Positions 29,113-35,070 of a DNA stretch of 35,824 nucleotides are shown here, piece after piece. A program made the position numbers and the translations under genes. The notes below the pieces were generated by a model that was not told where the DNA came from, did no database searches, and worked only from the letters and a program-made list of their open reading frames with translations. Position 1 is the stretch's first letter. Each line of letters opens with the position of its first letter. This DNA comes from a virus: the IMG/VR virus record IMGVR_UViG_3300033149_001302, positions 1 to 35,824 of that record; one strand, written 5' to 3'.

Positions 29113-29436
29113 ATGATCCGACTTCTTTTGATCCTGATGTTGGTAGCTGGTTGCAGTACTACTCCAAGCAACCCAGCTGATGATCTGCGAGCGTGCATCA
29201 ATGAGTGTTTCCCGGATGATGATGGGTGCATTAACGGATGTCGTCATGGGTGTTATTACGACTGCATCGGGGATGAGTGCATCGACCGTCTGACCTGCGA
29301 GCGGTGGTGTAAAGCTGACTGTGGGGATGATGCGGATTGCGCTGCAGCTTGCTGGGATAGGTGCCCGATCCCCGACCCGGAGATATGCACCGAGGAGCTC
29401 TATGCCAGGTGTGACGAGATGTGTTTTTTGCCTTGA
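29113..29436 (+). CDS. Cys-rich lipoprotein (107 aa)
   Basis: ATG 29113 after TTTGGAGTTGAG. MIRLLLILMLVAGC is a lipoprotein signal with lipobox LVAGC (Cys14), then STTPSNPADD. The mature part has a dense Cys pattern, 17 Cys in all (CINEC, CINGC, CYYDC, CERWC, CAAACWDRC, CDEMC), and many acids. Spacing of four or five between Cys suggests small disulfide-bonded repeats. The 5' 31 nt resemble the gene at 1043. An exported, lipid-anchored Cys-rich phage protein next to replication genes is unusual; superinfection exclusion is one idea, with no direct support. Confidence 0.65.
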   Translation: MIRLLLILMLVAGCSTTPSNPADDLRACINECFPDDDGCINGCRHGCYYDCIGDECIDRLTCERWCKADCGDDADCAAACWDRCPIPDPEICTEELYARCDEMCFLP

Positions 29437-29457: not shown

Positions 29458-30228
29458 ATGGCTCAAGCTGAAGGTTGGGTTATTAAAGCAAAGCTCGTCC
29501 GATCAAAGAAGTTCAATGCGCTGAATGGAGACGATTTCACACAGAAGATCTACTGCCTCATGTTGGCGTGCAAGGACTCATACGGCATGATGCCCGCAGA
29601 CCCCTTTTCACTGAAGGGCGCACTTGGCCCACTGGACAAGACCAAGACCCCCCAGAGGTTCAAGGCGGCGGTGGATAAATTGGCCAGCGTAGGACTCGTC
29701 TACCAATGGGATCACCAGGGAGATCCCTGGCTATACATGATGGGTCACGACGAGGAGAACCGAACCAATCGACGAGCCAAAGATCCCCTTGTCCCCAGGC
29801 CGGATATAGACCATATGTGGCTGAAAACAAACAAAGTCTGGACTAACTCCGGACTAACTCCGGAGTCAGTCGGGAGTAACTCCAACGGCAGTCCGGACTT
29901 TGTTTCGCACCCTCCCGCGCGCGCGGGATCTGGAAAGGGGAAAGGGAAAGGGGATCTGGATCAGGAAAAGGAAGATGGTCAGTTTGACATTTTCTGGAAA
30001 GCCTACCCCAAGAAAATCGGAAAAGGCGCAGCTCGGAAGTCATGGGAGAAGATCAAGCCCTCAGTGGATCTCTTGGGAGAGATCCTGACAGCCATTGATC
30101 GGCAAAAGCGTTCCCCTCAATGGCAAAAGGAGCGTGGACAATTCATCCCTAATCCGGCCACCTGGTTGAATCAAGAGCGGTGGTCTGATAGTGTCAATGT
30201 GGAAATCAACCAGAAATGGGATCTATAA
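29458..30228 (+). CDS. Replication initiator/replisome organiser
   Basis: 256 residues from ATG 29458. The N-terminal winged-helix-like domain (EGWVIKAKLVRSKKFNALNGDDFTQKIYCLMLACKDSYGMMPADP...) resembles phage replisome-organiser N-termini. A low-complexity linker (about residues 128-175) is encoded by the repeats at 29833-29901 and a purine-rich tract. The C-terminal FWKAYPKKIGKGAARKSWEKIKP...FIPNPATWLNQERW is the 'FWxxYPxKxxKxxAxxxWxK...PxxxxWLNQxRW' domain of phage initiators that load helicase. The gene overlaps the helicase gene by one base. Confidence 0.8.
   Translation: MAQAEGWVIKAKLVRSKKFNALNGDDFTQKIYCLMLACKDSYGMMPADPFSLKGALGPLDKTKTPQRFKAAVDKLASVGLVYQWDHQGDPWLYMMGHDEENRTNRRAKDPLVPRPDIDHMWLKTNKVWTNSGLTPESVGSNSNGSPDFVSHPPARAGSGKGKGKGDLDQEKEDGQFDIFWKAYPKKIGKGAARKSWEKIKPSVDLLGEILTAIDRQKRSPQWQKERGQFIPNPATWLNQERWSDSVNVEINQKWDL
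29833..29901. repeat. Iteron cluster in the initiator gene: candidate replication origin
   Basis: Two adjacent direct copies of GGACTAACTCC (29840-29850, 29851-29861), an inverted variant GGAGTCAGTCG (29862-29872) and GGAGTAACTCC (29873-29883). The cluster is flanked by AAAGTCTGGACT (29833-29844) and AGTCCGGACTTT (29890-29901), inverted repeats matching at 11 of 12 bases. ACTCCGGAGT (29857-29866) is a further palindrome. A purine-rich strand follows (29926-29975). The position inside the linker part of the initiator gene matches lambda ori within gene O. Confidence 0.65.
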
Positions 30229-31487
30229 TGCTTGATAGAATCAACGCAGAGATTGCCAAGCGGGAGCGTTCGATACTGGGCGCCGCGCTTGATGATTACC
30301 AGCACGCGGTGCTCGGGACCGACACGTCCCCGGACGACTTCTCGGATGGGTTGCGTTCAAAGCTCTGGGAATGGGTCAAGCGGCAGGCAGAAGCCGGAGA
30401 GATCCACGATGCTACTCTTGCGCGCATGAACCTACATATCCCCCCAAACACCGTGAAGGAGATCGAGAAACACTGGGTGCCTCCGAGTTCGATTCAGGCA
30501 GTGACGGATCAACTCAGGAAGTACAAGCGGATCAAGCGATGGGTTCTGTTGCTCCACGACTCGGCGCGAAGCATGGCGGAGAAGGGGAACGTTGACGAGA
30601 TACTTGGGGAGATCCACAAGGCGCAATCGGCCGAGGACCTGGCCGGCGCGTTGCGACCCAACAGAGATGTGCTGACGGAAGCCCACAAGCAGACAATCGA
30701 CGTTCAAGAGGGGAATCGGATCGGCTACCTACCCACCGGACATACCGAGTTGAACATACACGCCCCGGCCCCAGGGGAAGTTCTGGTGATCGGCGCCGAA
30801 TCGAGCATGGGCAAATCCCTGCTGGCATCCACGATTGCCGAGTACATGACCTCGATGGACAAGCCGATTCCCACCCTTTTTGTTTCTCTGGAGATGTCCG
30901 AAGAAGAGATCACAATCCGCAAGTTTGCTCACGCCGCTCGGGTGAGCTCCGGGGCTTTTCGCAACCCAGGTGCATTACAGTCAGAACATTACGACTCAAT
31001 CGGAGCGTACATCGACAACCACAAAAACAACCCCCTATACTGGCAGCGTATAGATACCCCGGAAAATCTGGTCAACACCGTGGCGCGACTCACCCGGCAG
31101 CACGGAATCAAAGCTGTGTTCATCGACTACTTGCAAAATATGAACTTCGGTGCGGGCGAGCGGTACGACTTGAAGATCGCCGGGGCAATGCGGATGTTCT
31201 ACTACACATCCAAGAAATACGGCGTGACTTTCTACGTGCTGTCACAGATCCGTAAACCACCACCGGGCGCGAGTGATCAGAAGGCACCGAAGCTTGCTGA
31301 CCTCAAGGAGTCGGGGGCAATCAGGCAAGTGGCGGATCATATCTGGCTGCTTTTTCGTCCGGGCTATACGGATCAAAACTCAGACGACGATAGAATCATC
31401 GTGAAGATCGCGAAGAACCGGAACGGTCCCACGGGGAACGAAATAAAACTGAACTTCAAGAACGGTCGATTAACGGATTGGAGCTAG
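30228..31487 (+). CDS. dnaB: Replicative DNA helicase, DnaB family
   Basis: 419 residues from ATG 30228, sharing one base with the initiator's TAA; an ATG 12 nt earlier is also possible. After an N-terminal helical domain, the RecA-like motor shows Walker A IGAESSMGKS (about residue 190), LFVSLEMSEEE (motif H1a/H2-like), Walker B AVFIDYLQNM, the sensor LSQIRKPP, and LKESGAIRQVADHIWLLFRP before the arginine-finger end. It unwinds DNA at the fork. The initiator/helicase pair is the core replication module. Confidence 0.9.
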   Translation: MLDRINAEIAKRERSILGAALDDYQHAVLGTDTSPDDFSDGLRSKLWEWVKRQAEAGEIHDATLARMNLHIPPNTVKEIEKHWVPPSSIQAVTDQLRKYKRIKRWVLLLHDSARSMAEKGNVDEILGEIHKAQSAEDLAGALRPNRDVLTEAHKQTIDVQEGNRIGYLPTGHTELNIHAPAPGEVLVIGAESSMGKSLLASTIAEYMTSMDKPIPTLFVSLEMSEEEITIRKFAHAARVSSGAFRNPGALQSEHYDSIGAYIDNHKNNPLYWQRIDTPENLVNTVARLTRQHGIKAVFIDYLQNMNFGAGERYDLKIAGAMRMFYYTSKKYGVTFYVLSQIRKPPPGASDQKAPKLADLKESGAIRQVADHIWLLFRPGYTDQNSDDDRIIVKIAKNRNGPTGNEIKLNFKNGRLTDWS

Positions 31488-31489
31488 TG

Positions 31490-31600
31490 ATGCACTTGAG
31501 CGACGCAACCAACTCACTAAAGTATGACGATCTATCCAAAACGGCTTTTAAGATAGCCGACGCAATGATTAAGGCCTGCGGAACGGAGGGAAGCAAATGA
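31490..31600 (+). CDS. Small coupled protein (36 aa)
   Basis: ATG 31490 lies two bases after the helicase stop, and its TGA overlaps the next ATG (ATGA at 31597). MHLSDATNSLKYDDLSKTA continues with FKIADAMIKACGTEGSK, probably one helix. The tight spacing supports translation; no strong RBS of its own. Function unknown. Confidence 0.45.
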   Translation: MHLSDATNSLKYDDLSKTAFKIADAMIKACGTEGSK

Positions 31601-32631
31601 AGATCGAGAAACTCACAGCCACGCAAGAAAAACAGTTGCAGGAATTCCGAAAGGAATGGTTTGAAATTGGATCTTGTACAGATCCGGCAGACAGACCTCG
31701 TGCTGAGAAGGCAATTCGCGAAATGTACAAACGGCTCGATAAAGATCCGCCAAAATTTGTTTGGGTGCAATCACCAGCGACTGCTATTTTATGTTGTGGG
31801 ATGCTGGGAAAATTAACGGAAGATAACATGCAGAGCCTGAGGCAGAGCCTGGAGCATAGCCTGGAGCATAGCCTGGAGCATAGCCTGGAGCATAGCCTGG
31901 AGCTGAGCCTGTGGCAGAGCCTGGAGCTGAGCCTGTGGCAGAGCCTGGAGCTGAGCCTGAGGCTGAGGCTGAGCCTGGGGGATCTTGCACAAGAGTTTTT
32001 GGGCAGGGAATGGTGGGGACAGCATGAGGCGTATTGGGTTGCGTTTTATAGATTCCCAGAGCAGTATTTAGGGGTGAAATATGAGCGATCCGCAGATTTG
32101 AAATTATGGGAAGAGATCGCAAGATCGTGTTGTTGGTGGTGGCCGTTTGAGAATGTTTGTATTGTCTCGGATCGCCCTGAGATCGTGAAGTGGGAAACCG
32201 ATCAGGAAAGGCCGCGTTTGCATTGTGAGAATGGGCCTGCTTTGAAATTCCGAGACAGTTGGGCATTGTGGTGCTGGCATGGCTTGAGAGTAACACAAGA
32301 GATCATTGAGCAGCCCGAGACGATCACGATAGAGCAAATTGACAACGAAGAGAATGCAGAGATCCGGCGAGTCATGGTAGAGCGGTATGGTCTTGAAAAA
32401 TTCGTCAAGGACAGCAATGCGACAGTAATTGACAATAGCGATTTCGGCACACTCTATCACCGAGAAATGAAAAGCGATGAGCCAATTGTAACCGTGAAGG
32501 TGCGGGATTCTTCTACTGATAGAATTTATTTTCTTCGCGTCCCGCCAGACATGAAAACCGCACAGCAAGCAATTGCCTGGACGTTTTCTTTACCCGAGAG
32601 CATAGAGTATAAACCAGTTGTAGAAACCTAG
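31597..32631 (+). CDS. DUF6745-like protein with SLEH-type tandem repeats (344 aa)
   Basis: ATG 31597 with AACGGAGGGAAGCAA upstream. The body matches the DUF6745 pattern as I remember it: FRKEWFEIGSCTDPADRPRAE near the start, LHCENGPALKFRDSWALWCWHG, VIEQPETITIEQIDNEENAEIRRVM-like 'EQPExITxEQIDxExNAExRRVMxERYG', and IYFLRVPPDMKTAQQAIAWTF at the end. Residues about 80-127 are tetrapeptide repeats. Members carry variable short repeats at this place. Function unknown. The partner gene at 32642 commonly accompanies it. Confidence 0.75.
   Translation: MKIEKLTATQEKQLQEFRKEWFEIGSCTDPADRPRAEKAIREMYKRLDKDPPKFVWVQSPATAILCCGMLGKLTEDNMQSLRQSLEHSLEHSLEHSLEHSLELSLWQSLELSLWQSLELSLRLRLSLGDLAQEFLGREWWGQHEAYWVAFYRFPEQYLGVKYERSADLKLWEEIARSCCWWWPFENVCIVSDRPEIVKWETDQERPRLHCENGPALKFRDSWALWCWHGLRVTQEIIEQPETITIEQIDNEENAEIRRVMVERYGLEKFVKDSNATVIDNSDFGTLYHREMKSDEPIVTVKVRDSSTDRIYFLRVPPDMKTAQQAIAWTFSLPESIEYKPVVET
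31834..31977 (+). repeat. 12-nt codon-periodic repeat (SLxx) in the DUF6745-like gene
   Basis: Eleven consecutive 12-nt units AGCCTGNNNNNN encode SLRQ, SLEH four times, SLEL, SLWQ, SLEL, SLWQ, SLEL, SLRL, then RL. Four SLEH units (31846-31893) are identical in DNA. Every unit is a multiple of three, so copy number can change in frame. Confidence 0.92.
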
Positions 32632-34117: not shown

Positions 34118-34435
34118 ATGATCGAGAAGAAAAGCGCAGGTAAGAGGGAGAAGAAACGATATGTGATGATCTTGGATTTCCACCGAGGTATTTATTTCGG
34201 AAAGCTCGTTGCCACGCGCAATAACGAGCGGACGGTGGACGTTGAGGAGGGGCGGCACTGCTTCAGATATGGGGTTGCGGAAGCGGGACATCGAGGAGTC
34301 TACGGTCTTGCGATTGTCGGACCGGCCGCTGGGGCGAAGATCGGCCCTGCCGTAAAAATGACGATCCACGACGTGGCGAAGATCGTAGAATGCACTCCAG
34401 AGGCGGTGGAGCGATGGAAAAAGATCATTTGGTAG
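34118..34435 (+). CDS. DUF6948-like protein (105 aa)
   Basis: ATG 34118 after AGAGGGAGGAGGAAGA, a strong RBS. A beta-rich core (YVMILDFHRGIYFGKLVATRN, VEEGRHCFRYGVAEAGHRGVYGLA, GPAAGAKIGPAVKMTI) is followed by a helix-turn CTPEAVERWKKI. This matches what I recall of DUF6948 (RGIYFGxL...ARHC...GxxGLAxxGP...CTPEAVxRW). Function unknown. The downstream Gly-X repeat gene starts inside its last codons; this pair also recurs in other genomes. Confidence 0.6.
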   Translation: MIEKKSAGKREKKRYVMILDFHRGIYFGKLVATRNNERTVDVEEGRHCFRYGVAEAGHRGVYGLAIVGPAAGAKIGPAVKMTIHDVAKIVECTPEAVERWKKIIW

Positions 34436-35070
34436 GCTTTGAACACGGCTCCGGCGACGGTGACGGCTCCGGCTACGGCTCCGGCGACGGCTACGGCGAC
34501 GGCTACGGCTATGGCTACGGCGACGGCTCAGGCGACGGCGACGGTGACGGCTACGGCGACGGCTACGGCGACGGCTACGGCGACGGCTCCGGCTACGGCT
34601 CCGGCTCCGGCGACGGTGACGGCTCCGGCTCCGGCGACGGCGACGGCTCCGGCTCCGGCGACGGCGACGGCGACGGTGACGGCTCCGGCTACGGCTACGG
34701 CGACGGCGACGGTGACGGCTCCGGCGACGGCTACGGCGACGGCTACGGCGACGGCAACGGCCTGGTTTTTGTCTCGCACGACACCCCCATTCTGGCCTGG
34801 TGGAGGATGGGGGATAGGCTCCACCTCGGCCAACCACTCGACACACGGAATGGCTCTGTCCACGAGTGGCCTTATTTGCCCAAGCTGTGCGCACATGGGT
34901 TGCATGCTTGTCTTGACAGGGACGACACAGTCAGATGGAGCAAAGGATCTCTGTGTCGCGTCGCGTGCTCCGGGTGGGTGAGATTCCAGCTAGATAAATT
35001 CGTTTGCACTCGGCGGGTAATAGTCGAGGAGGTCACATGCCAACCAGATCCACACGAGCCGAGCAGTTGA
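34414..35070 (+). CDS. Gly-X repeat protein with DUF7666-like C-terminus (218 aa)
   Basis: ATG 34414 (GGCGGTGGAGCG upstream; an in-frame ATG at 34390 is also possible) overlaps the DUF6948-like gene. Residues about 12-116 alternate Gly with Ser, Asp or Tyr, very hydrophilic and surely disordered or fibrous. The C-terminal domain (SHDTPILAWWRMGDRLHLGQPLDT..., KLCAHGLHACLDRDDTVRWSKGSLCRVACSGWV, DKFVCTRRVIVEEV) carries the 'GLHAC...V.G.....DK.V....I..E' pattern I associate with DUF7666. Function unknown. The gene overlaps the HTH protein at its end. Confidence 0.65.
   Translation: MEKDHLVGFEHGSGDGDGSGYGSGDGYGDGYGYGYGDGSGDGDGDGYGDGYGDGYGDGSGYGSGSGDGDGSGSGDGDGSGSGDGDGDGDGSGYGYGDGDGDGSGDGYGDGYGDGNGLVFVSHDTPILAWWRMGDRLHLGQPLDTRNGSVHEWPYLPKLCAHGLHACLDRDDTVRWSKGSLCRVACSGWVRFQLDKFVCTRRVIVEEVTCQPDPHEPSS
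34447..34761 (+). repeat. Gly-X codon repeat (GGC NNC)n, about 105 codons
   Basis: Every odd codon is GGC (rarely GGT) and every even codon is GAC, TCC, TAC or rarely TAT, TCA, AAC. The hexamers GGCGAC, GGCTAC and GGCTCC are shuffled without any frame break over 315 nt. The antisense strand is also open, an expected side effect of this composition. Confidence 0.92.

Follow-up and report, generated by a model that had tools for sequence, protein, structure and literature searches.

A probable replication origin in the linker-coding region of a phage initiator gene, with repeats that appear to follow the N-terminal domain

What does a regular array of short palindromes do in the middle of a protein-coding gene? 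The question is raised by a viral sequence record 35,824 bases long, referred to here as the window, in which a 256-residue protein is encoded on the + strand (29458–30228) and the palindromes occupy codons ~125–150. The element is very probably the iteron array of a phage replication origin located inside the gene of its own initiator. Examples of in-gene origins come from lambda and a small number of plasmids, most of them isolated cases. The window has no close DNA relatives among phage records, and no close relatives were found by single-protein scans of genome contigs or by helicase and capsid scans of viral contigs. Both contig ends (1–85 and 35710–35824) lie in the same GCGGCGG-type low-complexity repeat; the contig may represent a complete genome, or a circular one opened within this repeat.

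The array-bearing gene scores as a phage replication-initiation protein. Its C-terminal part matches PHROG 9474, 270, and 9327, annotated as ‘replication initiation protein’, with E-values of 1e-24 to 9e-20 (1.4e-24 for 9474 and 8.4e-23 for 270), and residues 40–175 weakly match phrog_2149 of the same annotation (E 3e-5). The next gene downstream (30231–31487, + strand) encodes a DnaB-type replicative helicase (Pfam DnaB_C, E 2e-41; phrog_19, E 5e-50). Both results uphold the first-pass annotation, made from the sequence alone, which had called the host gene an initiator. Immediately upstream of the initiator gene, at 29113–29436, lies a small ORF rich in cysteine whose start resembles that of a lipoprotein.

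AlphaFold2 models the initiator as a winged-helix N-terminal domain (~aa 9–112), a disordered linker (~aa 122–167), and a helical C-terminal domain (~aa 166–246). The array thus sits between the predicted DNA-binding N-domain and the C-domain, in DNA that encodes a linker predicted to be disordered, where it had been placed originally. The initiator matches no Pfam family at E<=0.01 and by sequence belongs to neither Phage_rep_O nor RepA_N, and sequence searches found no credible relative in the PDB. The N-domain model aligns with many winged-helix proteins at Z 7–8, including RepA_N plasmid initiators (4pql, Z 7.3; 4pt7, Z 7.0; 5kbj, Z 6.7), which are tied with Fur and other unrelated winged helices. 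The C-terminal domain is modeled with confidence as five helices (pLDDT 87), and neither Foldseek nor VIA gave it a PDB match of weight, a result that shows no relationship either way. In sequence, the part encoded at 29983–30195 and the proteins of PHROG 270/9474/9327 have a common C-terminal domain with the pattern FxxFWxxYP ... FIPxPATWLNQxRW.

The array contains six near-palindromic 10-bp units with the consensus ASTCCGGAST in an exact 11-bp register between 29835 and 29899, with starts at 29835, 29846, 29857, 29868, 29879, and 29890. Five of the six match the consensus at 9–10 of 10 positions. The units are AGTCTGGACT (29835–29844), ACTCCGGACT (29846–29855), the perfect palindrome ACTCCGGAGT (29857–29866), AGTCGGGAGT (29868–29877), ACTCCAACGG (29879–29888), which is degenerate and keeps one half, and the perfect palindrome AGTCCGGACT (29890–29899). 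Tandem Repeats Finder (TRF) reports a period of 11 with 4.0 copies at 29840–29883. Since 11 bp is not a whole number of codons, neighboring units are read in different frames, and the repetition resides in the DNA and not in the protein.

Four 11-bp units had been described at first: two exact, one inverted variant, and one variant. All four are found, with GGACTAACTCC exact at 29840 and 29851, inverted with two mismatches at 29862, and with one mismatch at 29873. This 11-bp unit is the 10-bp palindrome unit in a frame shifted by five bases, and the array is larger than was described. The inverted repeats reported to flank it are also present, at a length of 16 bp with 15/16 complementary positions (AAACAAAGTCTGGACT at 29829–29844 and AGTCCGGACTTTGTTT at 29890–29905) instead of 12 bp with 11/12. 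These arms delimit the whole dyad-symmetric element (29829–29905), which as a single strand folds into a three-way junction (RNA z −7.3 for 29826–29908); both strands of the region fold. No further copy of the array is present in the 35,824-bp window, including at any promoter. The observation of an array is therefore real and stronger than first described. Tandem arrays of other kinds lie elsewhere in the window: a 12-bp array of ~12 copies (31830–31977) runs in frame and encodes an HSLE repeat in the gene of a DUF6745 protein (31597–32631), and a 6/12-bp array of 26–52 copies (34452–34761) encodes a Gly/Tyr/Asp-rich repeat in the ORF at 34390–35070.

Chance is a poor explanation for the repeats. 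The best direct repeat scores 18.5, compared with 9.1±1.3 in synonymous-codon shuffles, which keep the protein sequence and of which 0/60 reach this value. Dinucleotide shuffles of the whole 35.8 kb give 11.3±1.0 with a maximum of 15.5, and 0/300 reach 18.5, while in a smaller run of 60 window shuffles one equalled it. Among 291 segments in the 31 ORFs of the window, only two overlapping ones that contain the array reach 0/100. The inverted flanks alone are weaker genome-wide, being matched in 14/300 shuffles, and what gives them weight is their position around the array. The synonymous-shuffle test was also run on phage lambda as a positive control and flags only the known in-gene origin there; the flagged stretch of gene O holds the annotated iterons with a period of 20.

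The DNA that follows the array is strand-asymmetric. The purine-rich strand that had been noted after it is present at 29920–29980 (78–82% purine), with the 14-bp GC palindrome CCCGCGCGCGCGGG (29914–29927) in between. Purine-rich short repeats (GGAAAGGGGAAAGGGAAAGGGG...) on the + strand at 29930–29978 have a period of 7 (P ~0.01 vs synonymous shuffles). The DnaD recognition element is a strand-specific element (PMC10201434), and by analogy with it these repeats are the best candidate for a strand-opening or single-strand recognition element. Duplex stability is lowest at 29800–29840 and 29960–30000, the latter with 62% AT; no strong AT-rich region lies near the array, and the least stable neighboring 40-mers are only ~2 sd from the mean. 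Of the features of a lambda-type opening region, purine asymmetry is present and AT enrichment is weak, which makes the opening site the weakest point of the origin mechanism. Cumulative GC skew climbs from one end of the window to the other without the turn predicted near 29.9 kb and lends no support to an origin there, although skew in a stretch of this kind may reflect transcription, which gives it little weight for or against.

Blind scans of 2.9 million IMG/VR viral contigs, one with the exact 22-mer and one with a pattern of two adjoining consensus units, returned 10 distinct loci. Eight of these lie in the linker of ORFs with an initiator-like domain layout, and seven of the eight carry three or more units; the two loci outside initiator-like genes have no more than the two units that the pattern required. 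Five of the eight match replication-initiation PHROGs, and L190, another of the eight, is homologous to PHROG-matching motif loci. At L191, the initiator-like gene is followed by a DnaB helicase gene. The motif-found loci keep both the unit sequence and the 11-bp spacing.

In five motif loci, the N-domain belongs to one family with that of the window (hhalign 99.3%, E 1.7e-20) at ~25% identity. Pairwise BLASTP found no link between the window’s N-domain and L190; profile comparison linked them. L193, L194, and L200 apparently have another N-domain type, and the case for L193 and L194 as initiators rests mainly on position and layout. Three viral sequences that are alike around the site (L192, L197, and L198) have two palindrome units in a 131-aa ORF with no PHROG match. 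By sequence comparison, then, the same DNA array occupies the same place in the initiator genes of otherwise unrelated phages.

Relatives of the initiator were gathered by tblastn and alignment-based scans from cultured phages and IMG/VR. The hosts of the cultured phages include Pseudomonas, Acinetobacter, Gordonia, Arthrobacter, Faecalibacterium, Rhizobium, and others; Arthrobacter phage Hum25 is one of the cultured relatives. Redundancy removal at 80% identity left 97 genes, including that of the window. Direct repeats out of codon phase (spacing not divisible by three) are significant at P<=0.01 in 58/97 linkers, compared with 6/96 N-terminal and 0/97 C-terminal segments; ~40% of linkers fall short of this threshold. 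Their spacings cluster at 10, 11, 14, 20, and 22. The first-pass annotation proposed that repeats would be conserved in position but not in sequence among relatives, and this test was passed across the 97 genes.

The linkers contain further elements. Short repeats with a period of 5 or 7 (one of 4) reach significance in 33 linkers, compared with one N-terminal and no C-terminal segments. In about a third of the relatives, strand-asymmetric period-5/7 repeats (GGGAA, GAGAA, AACCATA, and similar) lie between the iterons and the C-domain; examples of short tandem repeats of these periods are L006, L012, L114, and L062. They may be a single-strand recognition element. A strand-specific CCCCC-N(1-6)-CCCCC-N-GGGGG hairpin occurs in 16/97 linkers, where 0.96 are expected, and once on the other strand. 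This motif lies after the repeats, and the initiators that carry it come from unrelated phages, for example L070, L096, L114, and L178. The window itself has no match to the strict C-run/C-run/G-run motif, and CCCGCGCGCGCGGG is a possible counterpart of the GC-rich hairpin.

Binding of the repeats by the N-domain would predict that related N-domains have repeat words in common regardless of the C-domain to which they are joined. Repeated 7-mers are common to ~17% of pairs with homologous N-domains and to ~3% of other pairs at matched C-domain identity. Where C-domains are 93–99% identical and N-domains are unrelated (L005/L012/L014 and L032/L044/L045), no pair shares repeated 7-mers. Phages phiPSA1 and psageK9 are two relatives that combine nearly identical C-domains with different N-domains. 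Hitch-hiking of the whole linker would raise the sharing of single-copy words equally. Instead, pairs with N-domain identity <45% share 13.8 repeated and 2.5 single-copy words per 10,000, and unrelated pairs share 2.2 and 1.7, respectively. Permutation of cluster labels over genes gave a mean of 28 and a maximum of 48 in 5000 permutations vs 86 observed; the pairs are not independent, the clusters are broad, and shared ancestry within clusters is only partly controlled. The nearest N-domain relatives of the window (L023, L003, L033, and L024) have repeats of other sequence, a point against the origin reading, which suggests that specificity shifts quickly within the subfamily. The patterns of shared repeat words nevertheless indicate that repeat type follows the N-terminal domain, not the C-terminal one, across phage initiators.

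Other functions for the array must be weighed against an origin. Palindromic dimer-type sites within an operon would suit a transcriptional operator or autoregulatory site that binds the initiator or a repressor for the replication operon, and many winged-helix proteins are repressors. However, no promoter-like site is found near the array, no promoter in the window carries a further copy, and repeats recur at the linker position across relatives, so that an operator in place of an origin is improbable. Origin binding and autoregulation are not mutually exclusive. The very stable predicted fold of 29826–29908 raises a different prospect, namely that a three-way junction in the transcript regulates translation or mRNA stability. 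This is very unlikely, as strong folding is not general among relatives while repeats are frequent: only 18/97 linkers have z below −2, the window and several of its N-domain relatives among them. Both strands fold, as expected of palindromic binding sites; no Rfam match, known RNA family, or tRNA is found at the array; and the motif loci retain the unit sequence and 11-bp spacing, whereas the outer arm joined to a unit is not found elsewhere in the 2.9 million viral contigs. A cruciform or RNA cloverleaf as a conserved feature was rejected on the same count of strongly folding linkers, and the fold is treated as a by-product of the palindromic units.

In-frame palindromic elements occur in some bacteria, and inverted termini of 16 bp (15/16) around a short core are what a palindromic mobile element landed in a tolerant linker might leave. 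Such an insertion is extremely improbable here, since the patterns tried retrieve no second outer arm and unit from the 2.9 million viral contigs, a related pattern is absent from GTDB genome contigs, the window holds no other array, and eight of the 10 distinct motif loci fall in initiator-like genes. Selection on the linker peptide (NSGLTPE and similar) could also in principle create DNA repeats, and the same peptide frame does recur in several motif loci. The 11-bp unit nevertheless places successive copies in different frames and yields a peptide without a repeat at that period, and synonymous shuffles keep the protein and lose the repeat, so the probability of a protein-level cause is minimal.

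An in-gene origin, the preferred reading, has precedents with which the locus can be compared. In lambda and its Stx phage relatives, as here, dyad-symmetric iterons occupy a central part of the initiator gene. Protein O binds the lambda iterons, which are inverted repeats, as a dimer (PMC5043065, PMC7466680); in plasmids, helical phasing of iterons is common (PMC5043065). The differences are considerable: the window has 10-bp palindromes phased at 11 bp and lambda 18–19-bp iterons spaced 20–24 bp; a phage-encoded DnaB adjoins the window’s initiator, whereas lambda has a P-type loader; the lambda iterons adjoin the strand-opening region, while the candidate opening region here lacks a pronounced AT-rich tract; and the window’s initiator has no sequence match to Phage_rep_O. 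The likeness to lambda first claimed for the locus thus stands for layout and presumed mechanism and fails for ancestry, there being no Pfam match to the lambda O family.

RepA_N plasmids such as pSK41 are closer to the window in layout and presumed mechanism than lambda gene O. In pSK41 and pTZ2162, a winged-helix N-domain binds repeats central in the rep gene, the encoded linker is dispensable, and the C-terminal domain is separate (PMC5703833). The chimera pPR9 pairs a C-domain that is still >97% identical with an N-domain and origin that are different as a unit (PMC5703833), an exchange that resembles the pattern across phages of the same C-domain with a different N-domain and repeats. The window’s initiator has no Pfam RepA_N match, and the fold likeness (Z 6.7–7.3) is no closer than that to many other winged-helix proteins. 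The best reading is thus an origin that works like those of the lambda O gene or plasmid RepA_N and is, as far as sequence can tell, a member of neither family.

The initiators of PHROG 270/9474/9327, annotated in actinophages as ‘primosomal protein’ or ‘RepA-like replication initiator’, have their C-terminal domain in common with the window, and a DnaB helicase or DnaC-like loader adjoins the initiator in many annotated relatives. In-gene repeats in this group are not described in the papers searched. Repeats inside the replication gene of Francisella phage KIRK were proposed as an origin by comparison with lambda (PMC7924643); that is a single putative case with a Phg_2220_C initiator and no family-wide test, unlike the family of 97 genes here. 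Relative to the papers searched, and with some reserve for the general rule, the extent seems new, in that the layout appears frequent across many phage initiators with repeat type tied to the N-domain.

In the proposed mechanism, the N-terminal winged-helix domain, probably as a dimer, would bind each 10-bp palindrome. Units 11 bp apart, or about one helical turn, would place these dimers on one DNA face in a compact nucleoprotein array. Adjacent DNA would then open, most likely in the purine-rich and moderately AT-rich stretch at ~29930–30000. As neighboring genes and domain order suggest, the C-terminal domain on its flexible linker may deliver or contact the phage DnaB-type helicase. The linker probably tolerates almost any peptide, which would leave its codons free for DNA sites.

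A broader proposal, advanced tentatively and at somewhat less than an even chance, is that the interdomain linker serves as a general DNA slot for the whole origin in a large number of phages with diverse hosts. The slot would hold exchangeable iterons that go with the N-domain, followed by strand-asymmetric 5-/7-bp repeats with a role in single-strand recognition comparable to that of DnaA-trios or the DnaD recognition element; some phages would also have a strand-specific GC hairpin. The testable rule is that the linker-coding DNA of many unrelated phage initiators contains the origin sites, which track the N-terminal domain. It offers a means to predict the origins of uncultured phages from sequence alone and lets initiator domains be paired with their DNA sites, with N-domain and origin as a swappable module. 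If the linker is indeed a general origin slot, the sequence of an initiator gene could by itself reveal the origin sites, and N-domain and origin would move between phages as one cassette.
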